Source: Asinibacterium sp. OR53 (lineage in GTDB: Bacteria > Bacteroidota > Bacteroidia > Chitinophagales > Chitinophagaceae). From it: DNA of 64,000 nucleotides. The first letter of the stretch is position 1. Every line of letters begins with the position of its first letter. The stretch spans positions 2,192,501 through 2,256,500 of the forward strand of contig NZ_KI911562.1 of NCBI RefSeq assembly GCF_000515315.1, written 5' to 3'. Below, one piece after another: positions 4,006 to 59,854 of this stretch. The notes under the pieces were generated by a model, which worked only from the letters and a program-made list of their open reading frames with translations, ran no database searches and was not told the origin of the DNA. The position numbers were made by a program, and so were the translations under genes.

Positions 4006-5514
4006 CATGAGGTTACCGGCGCTGCCACTTTGTTCTGCAAAAGTGTTGGGCTTATCGTTGAGGCGATAGGGGAATTGTGCATCTGTGTTGAAAGCATGCG
4101 CATAGCCTAGATCAATGAAAATACCATGATCGCGGTAACCGATACCGCCGCTGGCCACAATACGGTTGGCTTTGATGGCGGCATCTGCATAGGGACTGCC
4201 ATAGTACGCGCCTCCCAACCGGAACATGATGGTGTGCAGTTTGAGTTCACCGCCTAGTTTGAAATTAATATTGCCTTTATAAGATGCTTTAACGGCATCG
4301 TTCACCTGGTGATAATAATTTGCTAATGCCTGGTCACCACCATCGGTAGAATAAAAACGAGCACCGCGGTAATTTACATACTCGAGGTCGGCGCTGATGA
4401 AAGCCCTTTGCAAACGCGTATCCCTGATCTCACGGAATACATAACTACCACTAACAATGGCCCTCCAGGGAGTTAACAGGTTGTAGGAGCGTCTGCCGGG
4501 GTCACCACTGTTGAGGCGATCGCTGGTTTCACTTACTGTTCCTGCAAAACCTTCGGTATTGGTAGTCATAGATGCCCTGAGTTCATCTTTGAAACCAATG
4601 AATTGCGGCGTGTGTATCGCGAAGCCAATGCGCCAGAAATCCTTCGGTTTATAAATGATACCAAACTTGCCGCCAATGCCTATACCCCGGGAATTGAACT
4701 GTTCTTTGAAAGTAGAATAAGCAAAATGATTATTGGGGTTATTGGTGGCATCCGTTTCTGTGTAGGTGAGGTCGCGCGCATAACTGATTACCGGGATGGT
4801 GAAGCTGCCGCCTATGTACAATTTATTATCCATATTGCCGGCGAATCCCAAAGCGATCTCATGGTATCCGCCGCGCGTAACGGCATCATACATCTGATTC
4901 ACACCTGTTGAAATGGGCACCATGCTTTGATAACCGGCCAGCGTACCGCCGGGTCCCCGCAAAGTATCTACGAGGTAAGTACGGAAAGCAAGAGAAGAAC
5001 CAAAAATATAATTGCTGAGTGCTGCATTGGTATCGGCACGGTCGCGCGTAAGCTCTTCCAGGAATTGCTCGGAATAAGAACTGAAATTATTGAAACCTTT
5101 GAACTGGATATGGTTGTTATAATTCGCTACTTCCATCACCGATAAAGCGAATGCGCTGCTCGTCCACTTCCTGGTGCCATCGTGATTAGCCGAACTGAGA
5201 ATAAAACCCGATGTGCCGTAGTTGAAACGGTTGAGACTACTGGTGGTATCGGAACCTCTGAAATTAAATTTATTATTGTTCAATAAAAACGCAGGAGATA
5301 AAACCAACTCATTGGTCTTGTACATACCAATACCCGCGGGGTTCACGTGATTGGCTGTGATCTCTCCGCCGAGAGAACCCATTACACCACCAATTGCAAC
5401 GTTGCGTGCCGTACCATTCTGTGTGAACCAGGCGGTACGCAATGCATCTTCCGGTGTTTGGGCAGATGCAAACAAAGCAAAGAGCAATAAAGAACCCAGT
5501 GTAAATGATTTCAT
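3982..5514 (-). CDS. OmpP1/FadL-like outer membrane beta-barrel protein
   Basis: Outer-membrane transporter of the OmpP1/FadL/TodX type, thought to pass hydrophobic compounds. After a signal peptide (MKSFTLGSLLLFALFASAQ) comes TPEDALRTAWFTQNGTARNVAIGGVMGSLGG, then HVNPAGIGMYKTNEL, which resembles the FadL N-terminal N-P-A-(G/A) hatch. The rest is alternating beta-barrel strands, ending in a strand with FGIKL. I chose ATG 5514 (510 aa) over 5535 because the signal peptide begins there. The 3' end overlaps miaA by 24 bases. The substrate is unknown. Confidence 0.7.
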   Translation of the reverse strand: MKSFTLGSLLLFALFASAQTPEDALRTAWFTQNGTARNVAIGGVMGSLGGEITANHVNPAGIGMYKTNELVLSPAFLLNNNKFNFRGSDTTSSLNRFNYGTSGFILSSANHDGTRKWTSSAFALSVMEVANYNNHIQFKGFNNFSSYSEQFLEELTRDRADTNAALSNYIFGSSLAFRTYLVDTLRGPGGTLAGYQSMVPISTGVNQMYDAVTRGGYHEIALGFAGNMDNKLYIGGSFTIPVISYARDLTYTETDATNNPNNHFAYSTFKEQFNSRGIGIGGKFGIIYKPKDFWRIGFAIHTPQFIGFKDELRASMTTNTEGFAGTVSETSDRLNSGDPGRRSYNLLTPWRAIVSGSYVFREIRDTRLQRAFISADLEYVNYRGARFYSTDGGDQALANYYHQVNDAVKASYKGNINFKLGGELKLHTIMFRLGGAYYGSPYADAAIKANRIVASGGIGYRDHGIFIDLGYAHAFNTDAQFPYRLNDKPNTFAEQSGSAGNLMLTFGIKL

Positions 5515-5593
5515 AATAGTTTTGTTTGGATGCACTTATCACTAACGACAGGCAAACCATTCACCTGACGTGCATGTGCTGAAGACGTTTGTA

Positions 5594-6424
5594 CTAATTA
5601 CCCCTGCTACGGCCACCACCCGCACTGCTGCCTGTGCTTTTGTAGCCGCCGCTATTGCCGCCTGCACTACTGCTGCTGGAAGAACTGGATGAGGAGTTGT
5701 TATTGCCGGAAGAATAAGTGTTGGTATTGCTGAAAGTACGCACGGGCCTGTCCCAACTGCTGGCATTGCTGGAATTATTGGGTGCAGGACTAAACACCCG
5801 TTTCATCAGGTTGCCAAAACGATTCTGGTTGTTGTCAACATTAATCCATTGTCCGGATTTGTTATCCCGGTAACCGGAATTGGTGTTGTTGTAAGTCCTG
5901 TTGCGGAAAGCCGCTATATTCGTTCCCGAGTTGAAATTTACATAGGTATTGTTTCCGTAAAAAGCTTTCGGATTCGCATAACCGATCACAGTGTAAGCGG
6001 GACAATTCCACCCCAGACCCCATCCTGGCCGCCACATGCCGTAACTCAATCCATAATTCCAGGCCGGGTACATTGAATAGGAGTAGGGGTTCCAGGCATA
6101 TAAGTTGTTCCAGGTATTGTAACCACCATAACCGTAATAGTACTGGCCAAAATCATAGCGGCTGTCATACCAGTAATTGAAGTCATCCAATGCACTCCAA
6201 CGGTTGCGGTTGGCTACTTTCATGCGCAGGTACTGGTCGTCCTGGCTGCTGATATAATCTTCATAACGCGATTTGTCATCCTGGTGCTTTTGCTGACGCA
6301 CCACCTGACCTTCTCTTCCGGGGGAATAATAAACATCATCGGGCGTTTGTCCGGATTTGTACATAGTAGAACAGCCAGCCAGTAAACTGGAACCGATGAG
6401 ACCGAGGAGTAGCATTCTTTTCAT
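5594..6424 (-). CDS. Tyr/Asn/Ser-rich putative lipoprotein
   Basis: I do not recognise a family with a known function. MKRMLLLGLIGSSLLAGCSTMYKSG is a lipoprotein signal with lipobox LLAGC (Cys at about 18). The middle (about 75-150) is very rich in Tyr, Trp, Asn and Gly. The C-terminus is low-complexity Ser/Asn/Gly with a run of serines and ends SAGGGRSRGN. 276 aa. Probably surface- or periplasm-exposed and partly disordered. It is read divergently from proS. Confidence 0.65.
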   Translation of the reverse strand: MKRMLLLGLIGSSLLAGCSTMYKSGQTPDDVYYSPGREGQVVRQQKHQDDKSRYEDYISSQDDQYLRMKVANRNRWSALDDFNYWYDSRYDFGQYYYGYGGYNTWNNLYAWNPYSYSMYPAWNYGLSYGMWRPGWGLGWNCPAYTVIGYANPKAFYGNNTYVNFNSGTNIAAFRNRTYNNTNSGYRDNKSGQWINVDNNQNRFGNLMKRVFSPAPNNSSNASSWDRPVRTFSNTNTYSSGNNNSSSSSSSSSSAGGNSGGYKSTGSSAGGGRSRGN

Positions 6425-6462
6425 AACGCCAGCATTAAGAAGTTAGATACTGTGAAGTTACA

Positions 6463-6470
6463 TACATTTG
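6463..6470 (+). promoter_or_regulatory. Possible -7 box upstream of proS
   Basis: TACATTTG matches TAnnTTTG and points toward proS, which would give a leader of about 90 bases. No good TTG is seen about 20 bases upstream, so this is a weak call. Confidence 0.3.
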
Positions 6471-6565
6471 CGTCTCTGTTGATAGGTAATAATTAAGCGT
6501 CAAAGAGTTTGCCAACAAACGATAGTAAGTAAACTATTTTGTTAATAGAATTGTAAAAATTTATA

Positions 6566-8044
6566 ATGAGTAAGGAAATCACATCCCGGGAACAGGATTA
6601 TTCGCAATGGTATAACGATCTGGTGTTGAAAGGTGGTCTTGCCGATTACAGTGCAGTACGTGGTTGTATGGTGATTAAGCCCTACGGTTTTGCTTTGTGG
6701 GAGAACATGCGGGATGTGCTGGACAGGATGTTCAAAGATACCGGGCATCAGAACGCCTATTTCCCACTCTTTGTTCCTAAAAGTCTTTTTGAAGCGGAAG
6801 AAAAAAATGCAGAAGGTTTTGCAAAAGAATGTGCAGTGGTAACCCATTACCGCCTCAAAAACGATCCGTCCCAGCCGGGCAAACTCATGGTAGATCCTGA
6901 AGCGAGGCTGGAGGAAGAGTTGGTGGTAAGACCTACCAGTGAAGCGATCATCTGGAATACTTATAAAGGATGGATACAATCGTATCGTGATCTTCCCATA
7001 CTTGTTAACCAATGGGCCAACGTGGTTCGCTGGGAAATGCGCACCCGTTTATTCTTGCGCACAGCCGAGTTCCTATGGCAGGAAGGACATACCGCGCACG
7101 CCAGTAAGGAAGAAGCGATTGAAGAAACCCGGAAGATGCTGGATGTATATGCCGATTTCGTAGAGAATTGGATGGCGGTACCGGTGATCAAAGGCGTAAA
7201 AAGTCCGAATGAACGTTTTGCCGGTGCAGAAGATACTTATTGTATAGAAGCGCTGATGCAGGATGGGAAAGCATTACAGGCCGGTACTTCACATTTCCTG
7301 GGGCAGAATTTTGCGAAAGCGTTTGATGTGAAGTTCAGCGATAAAGAAAACAAACTCGATTATGTATGGGCTACCAGCTGGGGGGTGAGCACCCGCCTCA
7401 TCGGTGCCCTGGTAATGGCGCATAGTGATGATGATGGCCTGATACTTCCTCCGAAGATTGCACCGGTTCAGGTAGTGATCGTACCTATTTATAAAGGCGA
7501 TGAGCAAAAAGCATTGATCGATGTGAAAGCGCACGAGCTCGTGAAGAAATTAAAAGGACTGGGCATTTCTGTGAAATACGATAACTCTGATAATTCACGC
7601 CCCGGTTGGAAATTTGCCGAATACGAAATGAAGGGCGTTCCTGTTCGCATGGCCATCGGCGCGCGCGATATGCAAAACAATGTAGTGGAGGTAGCACGCA
7701 GGGACACTAAAGAAAAACAAACGGTGAGTATGGATGGCATTGAATTCTATGTGCAAACCCTGCTCGAAGAAATACAACTGCATATTTACAACAAAGCCAA
7801 AACCTATCGCGATGAACACATCACGAAGGCCGACGATTGGAATACATTTGTAAACCTGCTGGATACCAAAGGCGGTTTTATCTCAGCACATTGGGATGGT
7901 ACTGCTGAAACGGAAGAACAGATCAAAGAACAAACCAAAGCAACCATTCGTTGTATTCCACTGGATGCAAAAGAAGAAGCAGGAAAATGCATCCTCACTG
8001 GCAAGCCTTCTTCCGTAAGGGTATTGTTTGCAAGGGCTTATTGA
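6566..8044 (+). CDS. proS: Prolyl-tRNA synthetase (archaeal/eukaryotic type)
   Basis: Charges tRNA-Pro with proline in the cytoplasm. Class II motifs are visible: [22 protein letters not shown] (motif 1), [16 protein letters not shown] with [25 protein letters not shown] (motif 2), and [28 protein letters not shown] (motif 3). An anticodon-binding domain follows ([11 protein letters not shown] onward), then the C-terminal zinc-type domain. 492 aa without the bacterial editing insertion is the archaeal-type ProS normally found in Bacteroidota. The stop is 2 bases before the truB start, suggesting co-transcription. Confidence 0.95.
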
Positions 8045-56709: not shown

Positions 56710-56717
56710 CTAATTTT
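56710..56717. repeat. Left 8-bp target-site duplication of the IS1595-family element
   Basis: CTAATTTT directly before the left inverted repeat. The same 8 bases follow the right end (59847-59854). An 8-bp duplication is usual for the IS1595 family. Confidence 0.92.
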
Positions 56718-56740
56718 GGCAACTATATACAAGTTGGGCG
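56718..56740 (+). repeat. Left terminal inverted repeat (23 bp)
   Basis: Begins GGCAACTATATAC and ends GTTGGGCG. It is the exact reverse complement of the right end at 59824-59846. Confidence 0.95.
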
Positions 56741-56774
56741 TAAATCTGATATTTAATTGAGAATCAGTTCTTTT

Positions 56775-56915
56775 TTATTTTTTGCCCTTCTTTTTGGCCG
56801 CTTTTTGGGGTGTTGGCGGCTTTCCCACTGAGATACGAATAACGTCTTCAAAACTGCCTTTTATAGCCAGTTTCTTATCCTGTTTGGTGGGTAGCTTTTT
56901 AGTACTCTTTGCCAT
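56775..56915 (-). CDS. Small lysine-rich protein of the IS1595-family element
   Basis: 46 aa, starting MAKSTKKLPTKQDKKLAIKG and ending PQKAAKKKGKK. It is highly basic, with a conserved-looking core SFEDVIRISVGKPP. Function unknown; a nucleic-acid binder is a guess. It reads divergently from the zinc-ribbon gene. Its leader carries the same 16-nt sequence as that gene's leader, which supports it being a real gene. Confidence 0.6.
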   Translation of the reverse strand: MAKSTKKLPTKQDKKLAIKGSFEDVIRISVGKPPTPQKAAKKKGKK

Positions 56916-56932
56916 AAGCCAGATATTTTATT

Positions 56933-57025
56933 GTCCTACTTAATGGTAGTATATTTTTAACTGTCATAGATAAAGGTAACAATTGTCATTCAATCGAATG
57001 TAACTTACTTACCATTAAGTAGGAC
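56933..57025. promoter_or_regulatory. Divergent control region with 16-bp inverted repeat arms
   Basis: Left arm 56933-56948 (GTCCTACTTAATGGTA) and right arm 57010-57025 are perfect reverse complements. As each faces its own gene, both transcripts would carry TACCATTAAGTAGGAC just ahead of the start codon. No clear TAnnTTTG box is seen between them. Confidence 0.7.
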
Positions 57026-57027
57026 GC

Positions 57028-57405
57028 ATGGAATTGGAAATATTATATAACAAATTTAAGACTCAGGAAGACTGTATTAAACTTCTTGAAAAGATTTTAT
57101 GGGACGATAAACCAAAATGCCCATACTGCTCATCCAAGAATAAGACTGCCATGCCTAGGGAAAGTCGATACCACTGCGGCAATTGCAGGTCTTCCTATAG
57201 CGTAACAGCCCGAACGATATTCCATAAAACAAAGGTTGATCTACAAAAATGGTTTGTCGCAATACCTCTAATAACAAAAGACAAGATTAGTGCGAGGCAG
57301 TTGGCAAAAGCCATTCATGTGACAAAGGATACTGCTTGTTTTATGGCGAATAGGATTAAGATTGCTAACCAGGAGTCACCAGAATTCATTAAACATTTTA
57401 TATAA
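57028..57405 (+). CDS. Zinc-ribbon/HTH protein related to the IS1595 transposase N-terminus
   Basis: 125 aa that align along their whole length with residues 1-120 of the transposase at 58667. Zinc ribbon C31-PY-C34 ... C50-GN-C53, then SVTARTIFHKTKVDLQKWFVAIPLI and an HTH-like KISARQLAKAIHVTKDTACFMANRIK. The catalytic DDE domain is missing, and the protein ends cleanly before the next gene. I infer a DNA-binding regulator or inhibitor of transposition; a decayed transposase copy is the alternative. Confidence 0.75.
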   Translation: MELEILYNKFKTQEDCIKLLEKILWDDKPKCPYCSSKNKTAMPRESRYHCGNCRSSYSVTARTIFHKTKVDLQKWFVAIPLITKDKISARQLAKAIHVTKDTACFMANRIKIANQESPEFIKHFI

Positions 57406-57421
57406 AATTAAATTCGCTAAA

Positions 57422-58357
57422 ATGAGAAAGAAAACTAACAATAAAGTATTAGAAGCGAAATTCGGTTCTGCCGACAAACCGCTTATAATTGGAGAAATTG
57501 AAATACCCTGTTATGTATTGGAGGATGGAAGACGCGTAATTGTACAACGTGGGTTATATAAGGCGTTAGGGGTTACACAAGGTGGTTCTAGGGATAAATA
57601 CAAGGAATATGGGGGTGCTGCCCGATTGGTAAGATTTTTAGACCAAAACAATCTTATTACATTGATTAGCACTGGTTTAGATGTGCTGCTCAACCCTATA
57701 GTGTTTAGTGTTAATAAAACAGATCACTATGGGTATGAGGCAACACTACTTCAAGAAATAGTTAGGGCAGTTTCTAAGGCTTATTTGCGAGGGGAACTAA
57801 GTGAAAGAAACCAAACAATTGGACAAAATGCTGAAATACTTGATGATGCTTTTGCAAAGGTGGGTATTATCGCATTAGTTGACGAGGTTACAGGATACCA
57901 AGAATTGAGAGAAAAAAATGCCTTGCAGGAATTCTTATCAAAGTTTATTAGGGAGGAAAGAGGCATCTATATAAAGACATACCCAGATGAGTTTTTTGAA
58001 GCAATTTTTAAAATGCGAAATCTTAATTGGTCCTTGGCTAACAAAGGGAAAAAGCCTCAATATATTGGTCATTACATAAACAATTACGTCTATTCTAGGA
58101 TTGCACCTAATGTCTTAACAGAATTGAGAACTATAAATCCTAAAGATGAGAGCGGCAAAAGAAAGGCTAAACACACACAGCATATTGATATTGATTATGG
58201 ACACCCAATGCTAAAGGAGCACTTAAAAGCATTAACCCTGTTTGCTAAGGCAGCAGGTTATAATTGGGCTAATTGGGAAAGAATGGTAAACCGCGCGCTT
58301 CCAAAATTTGAATCAGACGGAAGCCAAGTTCAGGAACTAGATTTCGATGATATATAA
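57422..58357 (+). CDS. P63C-domain protein (transposon cargo)
   Basis: 311 aa. IGEIEIPCYVLEDGRRVIVQRGLYKALG at the start and LDQNNLITLISTGLDVLLNPIVFSV then FAKVGIIALVDEVTGYQ and LQEFLSKFIREERGIYIKTYPDEFFEAIFKMRNLNW match the P63C domain, known from phage and mobile-element proteins but without a defined biochemical role. The start ATG 57422 is 16 bases after the zinc-ribbon stop; an open frame begins at 57362, but similarity does not. Codon use is AT-rich. No transposition role is established. Confidence 0.75.
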   Translation: MRKKTNNKVLEAKFGSADKPLIIGEIEIPCYVLEDGRRVIVQRGLYKALGVTQGGSRDKYKEYGGAARLVRFLDQNNLITLISTGLDVLLNPIVFSVNKTDHYGYEATLLQEIVRAVSKAYLRGELSERNQTIGQNAEILDDAFAKVGIIALVDEVTGYQELREKNALQEFLSKFIREERGIYIKTYPDEFFEAIFKMRNLNWSLANKGKKPQYIGHYINNYVYSRIAPNVLTELRTINPKDESGKRKAKHTQHIDIDYGHPMLKEHLKALTLFAKAAGYNWANWERMVNRALPKFESDGSQVQELDFDDI

Positions 58358-58364
58358 ATAAAAA

Positions 58365-58383
58365 AACCACTAAATGAGTGGTT
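58365..58383 (+). terminator. Weak terminator after the P63C gene
   Basis: 7-bp stem AACCACT / AGTGGTT with loop AAATG, 7 bases beyond the stop. The T-tract is short, so termination may be partial. Confidence 0.45.
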
Positions 58384-58513
58384 GAAATTCGGTTCATTCC
58401 ATAATAGAGTTCGCTGCGTACCCAGCCAGTATATACTGGGCAGTCCAGAACTGGTAGTAAAAGATCGGATTCATAATCCGAAACCTTACACACTATTTAA
58501 ACAGCAGACCAAC

Positions 58514-58544
58514 AAAGGGGCAGTCTCGCAAGGGCTGCCTCTTT
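58514..58544 (+). terminator. Terminator-like hairpin before the transposase promoter
   Basis: 10-bp stem AAAGGGGCAG / CTGCCTCTTT with one G-U pair and an 11-base loop, ending in T-rich DNA. It may shield the transposase from read-through, as is common in insertion elements. Confidence 0.65.
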
Positions 58545-58584
58545 ACATTTCAAAGATACTTCTTTTTGTGGTTTATGCAAGAAA

Positions 58585-58625
58585 GTGTAAATATTTTTTA
58601 CAATTAGTGTAAAATAATTTTACAC
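58585..58625. promoter_or_regulatory. Four-site operator array upstream of the transposase
   Basis: GTGTAAAT (58585-58592, +), TTTTACAA (58596-58603, inverted), GTGTAAAA (58607-58614, +) and TTTTACAC (58618-58625, inverted). The centres are exactly 11 bases apart, so all four lie on one helix face. The last site sits where the -33 element would be. Confidence 0.75.
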
Positions 58626-58641
58626 TTTCGGGTATTTCCCC

Positions 58642-58649
58642 TATATTTG
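58642..58649 (+). promoter_or_regulatory. -7 box of the transposase gene
   Basis: TATATTTG, with the ATG at 58667 about 12 bases past the expected start of transcription. No TTG -33; the region is filled by the operator array. Confidence 0.55.
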
Positions 58650-58666
58650 TCTAACAAATAAACCTG

Positions 58667-59587
58667 ATGAATTTCAAGAACCTACAGCAGCTTTTCGACA
58701 CTTTCAAGGATGAAGATACCTGCAAAAAGTATTTGGAGCAGCAAAGATGGGGCGATTCGCCTGAATGCCCCTTTTGTGGCTGCTCTAAGGTTTACAGGAC
58801 GAGCCGCGGATATCGTTGTGGGGATAAATTCTGTGATAAGAAGTTCTCCGTAACAGTAGGCACAATCTATGAAAACAGCAAAATAAGCCTTAGAACTTGG
58901 TTTGCAGCCGTATATCTGTTCACCTCTTCAAAGAAAGGTATCAGTTCTTTGCAATTAGGGCGTCAATTGGGGGTAACTCAAAAGACAGCGTGGTTTATGT
59001 TACACCGTATCCGTGAAATGCTACGAGCAAAAGCCCCGCAAATGCTCAAAACCGAAGTTCAGATTGATGAAACCTATGTGGGTGGTAAAGAGAAAAACAA
59101 GCATTTAAGTAAACGCAAGGTAAAGCCCGAAGGTGTAGGCCGGACGGACGATAAAACCCCTGTATTCGGTATTGTTGAAACTGGTGGTAAGATTGTGGTA
59201 CAGGTTTCTGAATGGGTAACCAAAAAGAATGCAAAGGAATTGATCGACACCTATGTAGAGAAGGGCAGCACTATGGTAACAGATTCTTACAGTATGTATG
59301 CTTTCCTTTCTAAGGAAAATAACTTTACCCATGTGGTTATTGACCATAGCAAAGGACAGTATGTAAATGGTAAGTTCCACACCAATGGAGTAGAGAACTT
59401 CTGGAGCCTCCTGAAACGTGGCTTGTACGGTATTTACCATCAAGTAAGCCCGCAGCACCTACAGAGGTATTGCGATGAATTTGCAGCACGGTATAATACC
59501 CGTAGAATAGCAGATAATGAAAGATTTGATGTCAGCTTGCAGAACAGTGAGGGAAGATTAACGTATAACCGTTTAATTGGCAAATAA
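58667..59587 (+). CDS. IS1595-family (ISXO2-like) transposase
   Basis: 306 aa, complete. Zinc ribbon C34-PF-C37 / C51-GDKF-C56, HTH in GISSLQLGRQLGVTQKTAWFMLHRIR, then the DDE-like domain: VQIDETYVGGKEKNKH (Asp 134), VTDSYSMY (Asp 206) and FHTNGVENFWSLLKRGLYG (Asn 240/Glu 243, with K/R after). A near-complete C-terminal block RYCDEFAARYNTR is present. The operator array and promoter lie just upstream. Confidence 0.93.
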   Translation: MNFKNLQQLFDTFKDEDTCKKYLEQQRWGDSPECPFCGCSKVYRTSRGYRCGDKFCDKKFSVTVGTIYENSKISLRTWFAAVYLFTSSKKGISSLQLGRQLGVTQKTAWFMLHRIREMLRAKAPQMLKTEVQIDETYVGGKEKNKHLSKRKVKPEGVGRTDDKTPVFGIVETGGKIVVQVSEWVTKKNAKELIDTYVEKGSTMVTDSYSMYAFLSKENNFTHVVIDHSKGQYVNGKFHTNGVENFWSLLKRGLYGIYHQVSPQHLQRYCDEFAARYNTRRIADNERFDVSLQNSEGRLTYNRLIGK

Positions 59588-59799
59588 TGGAACTAAAAGA
59601 AGCCATTGAACACCTGATAGGCTCCGAGCAGTTTAAAGCAAAGGCAAAGCAGAAAAACGGGGAAGGGGCAAAATACCGTATGTTCTTGGCAAGACATAAG
59701 AAAGATGAACTTAAAAACGGGGCTGTTATTGACTTCCTACTGGATCACAGTTACCGGGTGGATGTGAGAACTCCTCTTAAAATTCAGAAGAACGGGTGA
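59587..59799 (+). CDS. Small protein coupled to the transposase
   Basis: 70 aa, MELKEAIEHLIGSEQFKAKAKQK to RTPLKIQKNG. Its ATG overlaps the transposase stop by one base (TAATG), so it is translated with it. The central KNGAVIDFLLDHSYRVDV resembles a short HTH-like helix pair, but I cannot assign a family. It probably helps or regulates transposition (inference). Confidence 0.6.
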   Translation: MELKEAIEHLIGSEQFKAKAKQKNGEGAKYRMFLARHKKDELKNGAVIDFLLDHSYRVDVRTPLKIQKNG

Positions 59800-59814
59800 T
59801 TCCGTTCTTTTTTT
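59788..59814 (+). terminator. Terminator at the right end of the element
   Basis: 8-bp stem AAGAACGG / CCGTTCTT with a 6-base loop followed by seven T; the stem includes the stop codon of the 70-aa gene. It ends 10 bases before the right inverted repeat. Confidence 0.75.
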
Positions 59815-59823
59815 ATTCATTTC

Positions 59824-59846
59824 CGCCCAACTTGTATATAGTTGCC
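59824..59846 (-). repeat. Right terminal inverted repeat (23 bp)
   Basis: Begins CGCCCAACTTGTATATAG and ends TTGCC, the reverse complement of the left end. Confidence 0.95.
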
Positions 59847-59854
59847 CTAATTTT
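59847..59854. repeat. Right 8-bp target-site duplication
   Basis: CTAATTTT, identical to 56710-56717. Confidence 0.92.

Follow-up and report, generated by a model that had tools for sequence, protein, structure and literature searches.

A complete IS1595-family transposon in Asinibacterium sp. OR53

We analysed a stretch of 64,000 nucleotides from the genome of Asinibacterium sp. OR53 (contig NZ_KI911562.1, forward-strand positions 2,192,501 to 2,256,500), hereafter called the window; positions are counted from its first letter. The window contains a complete IS1595-family transposon of 3129 bp (56718–59846), which holds, in addition to a full transposase gene, a gene for a P63C-domain protein and a gene, here named ZnR, for what its sequence identifies as a second transposase derivative without a DDE domain (Table 1). 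An initial annotation had described perfect 23-bp inverted repeats, an 8-bp target duplication and a full transposase accompanied by four other genes. The coordinates and the open reading frames (ORFs) agree with that description, and a search for an exact 8-bp duplication combined with 20-bp inverted ends around P63C returned the same pair of ends with 20/20 matching positions, the runner-up reaching 11/20.

The transposon is present as a single copy in the 3.716-Mb single-contig genome, inserted between an ABC-transporter gene and a gene encoding a 227-aa protein. The comparison with empty sites that had been proposed could be made in three genomes of the same genus (G1028, G441 and G032), in which both flanking genes are adjacent and the transposon is lacking. 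Alignments with G1028 and G441 show the target uninterrupted (TTTCACCTATTTTTGCGCTCACA, as against TTTCCCCTAATTTT/GCGCTCACA in the window), and the alignment with G032 covers the same flanking-gene span. The genome encodes another IS1595 transposase, 44% identical to that of the transposon. A second IS1595 element of this genome (L134, 2349–6728) has ends matching at 17/20 positions and the duplication TAAAAATT; in it a 142-aa gene overlaps the transposase stop codon, and IS3-type genes lie within the same stretch.

The 306-aa transposase matches the DDE domain of the family (PF12762 DDE_Tnp_IS1595, 132.3 bits; cut-off 27), the model NF033547 (218.6 bits; cut-off 75) and, at its N-terminus, the zinc ribbon PF12760 (41.1 bits; cut-off 25.4). 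Residues D134, D206 and E243, which we take to be the catalytic residues, are invariant among six transposases. DDE domain, zinc ribbon, 8-bp target duplication and inverted ends are all features of IS1595 elements. Passages of a description of the family list an N-terminal zinc ribbon (except in the IS1016 group) and usually a single transposase gene (PMC8101967). As this wording is 'usually', the presence of one full transposase together with one DDE-less derivative does not exclude membership of the family. The transposon is complete and probably autonomous; from what is known of the family, the 306-aa transposase and the 23-bp ends on which it acts would make up its mobility module.

Neither the 46-aa nor the 70-aa protein matched a Pfam family above its cut-off, and the former gave one chance-level row (E 0.15). 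Relatives of the 70-aa protein beyond the window's own were found in 1 of 207 genomes: in G092, a protein 65% identical is encoded by a gene divergent to an IS1595 transposase.

Table 1. Features of the transposon and its insertion site, in window coordinates.
Feature	Position	Strand	Remarks
Target duplication, left copy CTAATTTT	56710–56717		8 bp
Left terminal inverted repeat (TIR) GGCAACTATATACAAGTTGGGCG	56718–56740	+	23 bp, perfect
46-aa Lys-rich gene	56775–56915	-	similar small gene in five other ZnR–P63C elements
Operator-like site GTCCTACTTAATGGTA	56933–56948	+	12/16 to TIR-A motif; perfect 16-nt inverted repeat with 57010–57025
Operator-like site GTCATAGATAAAGGTA	56963–56978	+	16/16 to terminal repeat of element L123
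Inverted operator-like site	57010–57025	-	ends two bases 5' of ZnR start codon
ZnR, 125 aa, DDE-less IS1595 transposase derivative (zinc ribbon and helix-turn-helix)	57028–57405	+	
P63C protein, 311 aa	57422–58357	+	P63C domain at residues 172–264
Part of strongly folding intergenic stretch	58364–58542	+	two terminator-like hairpins and CGGATTCATAATCCG palindrome
Inverted pair GTGTAAA/TTTACAC	58581–58629		upstream of transposase
TATATTTG	58642–58649	+	fits TAnnTTTG
Full IS1595 transposase, 306 aa (zinc ribbon, helix-turn-helix, DDE domain)	58667–59587	+	
70-aa gene	59587–59799	+	overlaps transposase stop
Right terminal inverted repeat	59824–59846	-	23 bp, perfect with left repeat GGCAACTATATACAAGTTGGGCG
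Target duplication, right copy CTAATTTT	59847–59854		8 bp

P63C recurs next to IS1595 transposases

The 311-aa protein matches P63C (PF10546) with 78 bits (cut-off 26.1). P63C was searched for in partly overlapping samples of 395, 396, 324 and 149 genomes of the phylum and in genome contigs, which yielded, with the window left out, 17 distinct full-length loci (G315, G406, G564, G608, G792, G786, G784, G565, G787, G783, G693, G904, G944, G1126, G1142, L007 and L008). At 15 of these, P63C is immediately preceded, on the same strand, by an IS1595 transposase or the DNA-binding half of one; the transposase of L007 is frameshifted. Left out of the 17 were G384, which scored under the Pfam cut-off, and six loci with the C-terminal part of P63C only (G429, G166, G666, G990, G996 and G1019), which had no IS1595 match in the flank examined. 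P63C elements are rare: among 396 genomes of the order, 11 have P63C, and a sample of relatives gave no match in its 59 other genomes.

Among viral contigs, a single P63C protein used as query found no close relatives, and an alignment query found at least 523. An IS1595 match adjoins P63C in 9 of the 80 loci that were kept (in L059 a transposase tail only, in L117 a fusion), a count to be read with the fact that some viral contigs end close to P63C, so that a neighbouring gene can be missed. Inverted ends of at least 15/20 together with an exact 8-bp duplication surround 18 of 25 IS1595–P63C loci, the window included. Element L128 has 20/20 ends and six of eight duplication bases, and the end search found no inverted ends with a duplication at L132, L046, L048, L059 and L114. 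Loci without IS1595 scored at most 13/20 among the matches listed; L062–L075, which lack IS1595, are outside that listing.

On these sequence comparisons, P63C is not a random cargo of IS1595 transposons. The spacing of the genes suggests that it is probably co-transcribed with the transposase or its DNA-binding half. It is possible, if somewhat doubtful, that P63C is nevertheless plain cargo which serves its carrier in defence, counter-defence or lysogeny control, and that it stands close to IS1595 for historical reasons; such a role would be compatible with the interpretation of ZnR developed below. It would fit the plasmids (5 of 14 records) and phages (3 of 47, from annotation only) whose P63C regions were examined: no IS1595 adjoins P63C there, and in some of them P63C lies near an integrase or is itself a single gene on the opposite strand. 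It would also fit the defence-type genes of two relatives of the transposon. Against it stands the position of P63C directly downstream of the transposase or DNA-binding half at the 15 loci, with more than one transposase clade involved. In addition, across 13 elements the distances between transposases are correlated with those between P63C proteins (Mantel r 0.479; 14 of 20,000 permutations), although both may also follow host groups. A defence system as cargo of the window's element was rejected: the only PADLOC row for the four accessory proteins (E ≤ 0.1) was a weak JetB match of P63C (E 0.025).

Two genomes contain a C-terminal-only P63C gene (about 198 aa) directly downstream of a gene for a protein of about 406 aa (L024, 4048–5866; L025, 4023–5848). 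The latter looks by eye like an XRE domain joined to a metallopeptidase, and the two genes could be a regulatory or toxin–antitoxin-like pair.

Two kinds of P63C transposon

As support for its reading, the initial annotation had named the same five-gene layout between the same ends at unlinked sites, and the outcome favours that reading. The core of the layout was found in five other elements (L008, L124, L126, L127 and L163), where a Lys-rich gene, ZnR, P63C and an IS1595 transposase lie between similar ends; L127 is cut by the contig edge, with one end and the start of the transposase visible. The gene order, however, varies: only L124, which has an additional 74-aa ORF, repeats that of the window. 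Nor do the five share the 70-aa gene; in L008, L124 and L126 it is a 69-aa XRE-type gene that overlaps the transposase stop codon. ZnR is faced by the Lys-rich gene in the window and L124 and by the full transposase in L008, L126, L127 and L163. The Lys-rich proteins of L008, L124, L126 and L127 have FHNIM.ASVK in common, and the resemblance is weaker for those of the window and L163. Since ZnR and P63C form a recurrent pair, the term 'cargo', under which they had first been described, is the wrong word for them; cargo of defence type is seen in relatives rather than in the window, namely a restriction-modification pair in L060 and 2TM and 1TM proteins in L008; L126 carries a Holliday-junction-type nuclease.

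A second kind of element consists of a full transposase followed by P63C. It is represented by L007, L123, L128–L131, L141, L142 and L162 and, on viral contigs, by L043, L048, L060, L080, L094 and L114, with variable further genes. The viral element L060 also carries a type II restriction-modification pair (4857–6679; PADLOC E 1.2e-52 and 5e-54). L117 (3796–4922) is a one-gene element of 1127 bp with 20/20 ends and an exact duplication, whose single gene joins P63C to part of the DNA-binding half of an IS1595 transposase.

ZnR is a transposase without its DDE domain

The 306-aa transposase exceeds the Pfam cut-offs for both Zn_ribbon_IS1595 and DDE_Tnp_IS1595, the 125-aa ZnR that for Zn_ribbon_IS1595 alone. 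ZnR matches positions 1–52 of the 215 positions of NF033547, under the cut-off of the model. As this covers only the zinc ribbon and the first quarter of the transposase model, ZnR corresponds to the DNA-binding half of a transposase. The initial annotation had called the protein 'zinc-ribbon-only', but the helix-turn-helix (HTH) half of the transposase is also present.

A tree was built from the DNA-binding halves (27 rows, without L163) and rooted at the midpoint for display. The five ZnR proteins in it group together as a clade (99/98), on the same side of a 100/100 split as the transposases of L123, L007, L043, L060 and L080. The full transposases of the window, L008, L124 and L126 are on the opposite side. 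By sequence, ZnR is a transposase without a DDE domain, and of a different clade from the transposase of its own element. A further DDE-less protein, L046 on a viral contig, groups with L080, L043 and L060 (96/91), and its DDE domain seems to have been lost independently of the loss in the ZnR clade of the window. The DDE-less protein L132, which adjoins P63C in genome G315, falls among the transposases of the non-ZnR side. L132 is a candidate domesticated ZnR–P63C operon around which no inverted ends were found; its only relatives among 149 genomes of its family, in G1126 (29% identical) and G1142 (25%), each lie beside an IS1595 transposase between inverted ends, and the one TAA noted for G1142 is, by its coordinates, the stop codon of that ORF. 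A Trp residue after the HTH is present in all 19 transposases compared and is replaced in seven of eight DDE-less proteins (window, L008, L124, L126, L127, L046 and L163).

Loss of the DDE domain is a common fate of transposases, and ZnR could be the decaying fragment of a transposase left by a nested insertion. Against such decay, the five ZnR ORFs are intact at only 37–52% identity to one another, and a sixth, L163, is 47% identical to that of the window. As synonymous divergence (dS) was saturated (returned as -1), the ratio of nonsynonymous to synonymous substitution could not serve and differences by codon position were used instead: the third position differs most and the second least in 10 of 10 pairs of the five genes, an excess that also argues against decay.

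Sites resembling transposon ends precede ZnR

The ends of the transposase–P63C elements L123 and L007 read GGTAATGTCATAG(A/T)TAAAGGTAGT. Upstream of ZnR in the window lie GTCATAGATAAAGGTA, identical to the L123 end over 16 bases, and two copies matching at 12/16, of which one is the inverted site beside the start codon. We scored the best match to the motif GTCATAGWTAAAGGTA, which had been derived from the window, L007 and L008 and in which W afterwards replaced A at the eighth position, within 120 bp upstream of each ZnR gene. The scores were 16 of 16 in the window, L126 and L127, 15 in L008 and 13 in L124, whereas 19,866 windows drawn at random from these and similar loci yielded no score of 14 (maximum 13, in 65 windows). 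L163, found later, scored 15/16 with W and 14/16 with the unrelaxed motif. Over 24 bases, the regions upstream of ZnR match the end of their own element at 11–13 positions and the better of the L123 and L007 ends at 15–19. In the whole 3.716-Mb genome, the 16-mer GTCATAGATAAAGGTA occurs once at up to two mismatches, at the site given in Table 1; a reversed control pattern occurs nine times.

A second, inverted site lies next to the ZnR start codon in the window, L008, L126 and L127. L007, L008, L127 and L163 have a TAnnTTTG box, which we take to be the Bacteroidota -7 box consensus, downstream of the upstream site and ahead of the start codon; this placement is as expected of an autorepressor. 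L046 is preceded by three tandem GTCCTAG... sites that resemble the end of L080, a member of its own clade (GTCCTAGATTAAGG).

These sites bear on the decay of ZnR as well, under which they would be the functionless fossil of a former end. The distance from the upstream site to the start codon (65–78 bp in the window, L008, L126 and L127) does resemble that from end to start codon in the intact elements L123 (83 bp) and L007 (90 bp). Against a fossil end stand the second inverted site in four elements, the three copies in the window and the tandem sites of a separate lineage in L046; the absence of a second end-like site from the rest of the window's genome likewise speaks against it, and taken together with the state of the ORFs these points make decay unlikely.

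The resemblance of the sites to the ends of another clade could also mean that ZnR and P63C form an exclusion module, in which ZnR would bind the ends of incoming transposase–P63C elements of that clade, block their movement and so protect the host of the resident transposon. The lack of any other such site in the genome would be in keeping with this, but is expected in any case because P63C elements are rare, and autoregulation is the simpler account of the sites. We give the exclusion module little credence.

P63C may be a DNA-binding protein of the KilA-N/Bro-N type

The structure of the P63C protein was predicted from a 63-row alignment (mean pLDDT 86.4, pTM 0.62). The model had no match in the PDB at E ≤ 0.001, and three rows from a sequence comparison with solved structures (E ≥ 0.77) were judged to be chance. 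Residues 13–160 weakly resemble KilA-N/Bro-N domains: the N-terminal domain, with a weak likeness to a granulovirus Orf22 and to Mbp1, matched 4ye7 (Z 5.5 over 94 residues) and 1mb1 (Z 3.0), which we take to be KilA-N/Bro-N/APSES-type proteins; Z values below 8 may reflect a common arrangement. DdrC of Deinococcus was the first PDB row in both programs, with a weak likeness over most of the length of P63C (Z 6.4, root-mean-square deviation 13.6, E 0.056), and was set aside as a true relative and kept as a lead only. The viral structure library BFVD gave the p63 protein of Myxococcus phage Mx8 as its top row (E 2.8e-7); weak Bro-N (E about 0.03) and antirepressor matches came after it. The predicted model suggests that P63C may carry a KilA-N/Bro-N-like DNA-binding domain, and P63C is likely a DNA-binding protein.

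Non-coding features between P63C and the transposase

The stretch after P63C (58358–58650) folds unusually well in the window (z -6.2). The corresponding values are -5.3 in L128, -4.9 in L126, -4.3 in L007, -3.6 in L127, -2.7 in L163 and -2.0 in L124; no unusual folding was seen in L123 (-0.9), L008 (-0.5) and L141 (-0.3). The motif ATCTCATTAG recurs in these stretches of L008, L124 and L126. The palindrome CGGATTCATAATCCG (58463–58477) looks like a tRNA-Met anticodon arm, and ARAGORN found no tRNA there or elsewhere in the window. As all Rfam rows for the window were also under the gathering score, a tRNA or known RNA in this stretch was rejected; over eight relative loci, Rfam gave two matches (tmRNA and DUF805 RNA), both outside the elements. 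The sequence TTTACACT from the inverted pair upstream of the transposase is also found in the ends of the related transposase–P63C elements L129, L130 and L142.

A captured transposon as the probable origin of ZnR–P63C

We think it probable, from sequence and by analogy with known systems, that ZnR and P63C derive from a captured transposase–P63C transposon. Its transposase, once disarmed, would have turned into an autoregulator like InsA, with operators derived from transposon ends. The pair would form a second module, descended from IS1595 transposons of the other kind, with P63C directly behind a full transposase. The ancestral transposase would have dropped its DDE domain and retained the zinc ribbon and HTH, and copies of the former terminal repeat would have been retained and multiplied upstream of the ZnR start codon. 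By analogy with InsA, we infer that ZnR binds these operators and represses its own promoter and hence ZnR–P63C. It may also repress the gene that faces it, which is the Lys-rich gene in two of the elements; in the four where the full transposase occupies this position, ZnR would limit transposition directly.

Several observations weigh against this origin. The motif can be tested on sequence unused in its choice only in L124, L126, L127 and L163, where its unrelaxed form scores 12, 15, 15 and 14 of 16, respectively. The sites of L124 are weak, their 13/16 being the level also reached by the 65 random windows, and over 24 bases they match the L123/L007 end at 15 and their own end at 13 positions. 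The L046 sites were picked by eye, and the ZnR promoter of the window has no clean TAnnTTTG box. L132 retains the Trp after its HTH and has no such site, its best match being 9/16. P63C occurs without IS1595 nearby in G406 and G792, as it does in the plasmid and phage regions examined. Finally, the P63C proteins of L126 and L127 are on a different branch of the P63C tree from that of the window, so the association of ZnR with P63C has not been constant.

A transposon protein that has lost catalysis and turned regulator, as proposed here for ZnR, has a parallel in the nuclease-dead TnpB repressors (TldR), which differ in being RNA-guided and of another protein family. The closer model is InsA of IS1, a zinc-finger/HTH protein that, according to passages of PMC12428005, represses the left-end promoter and competes with the transposase for both ends. 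ZnR is likewise the zinc-finger/HTH DNA-binding half of a transposase, without the DDE domain. InsA, however, is read from the transposase's own gene, the transposase requiring a rare frameshift, whereas ZnR is a separate gene from another IS1595 clade, its upstream sites match the ends of that clade rather than of its own element, and P63C adjoins it. MTnSag1 and tISCpe8 resemble the window's element in that inverted ends enclose further genes along with a DDE transposase of IS1595 type in one mobile unit; tISCpe8 is a lincomycin resistance element, to judge from a title cited in PMC5704250. In the passages of that source they are described as mobilizable, with no mention of P63C or of a DDE-less second transposase (PMC5704250). 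P63C itself may be compared with the p63/KilA-N/Bro-N proteins of phages, with its domain above the Pfam cut-off and a predicted fold closest to Mx8 p63, but that of the window is tied to IS1595 transposons and not to a phage.

In the titles, abstract starts and passages of the open-access literature that were searched for IS1595 accessory genes, P63C and the subgroup names, no paper joined P63C with IS1595. The link is absent from passages of PMC6536676, PMC13414232, PMC7371123, PMC8101967, PMC5704250 and PMC12428005, and P63C is mentioned once in PMC10868621. As this scope is open-access and lies outside both the family-defining 2009 paper and ISfinder, it is no proof of novelty.

More generally, and more tentatively, a disarmed transposase and former terminal repeats may have become a repressor–operator pair that, together with the phage-type P63C protein, controls a transposon that depends on an IS1595 transposase of another clade, a conversion that would have happened at least twice, in the clade of the window and in L046. 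If this is true, IS1595 elements would offer a natural series from transposase and terminal repeat to repressor and operator, with both forms extant, and the widespread P63C gene would gain a testable setting in a small transposon that exists with and without it.

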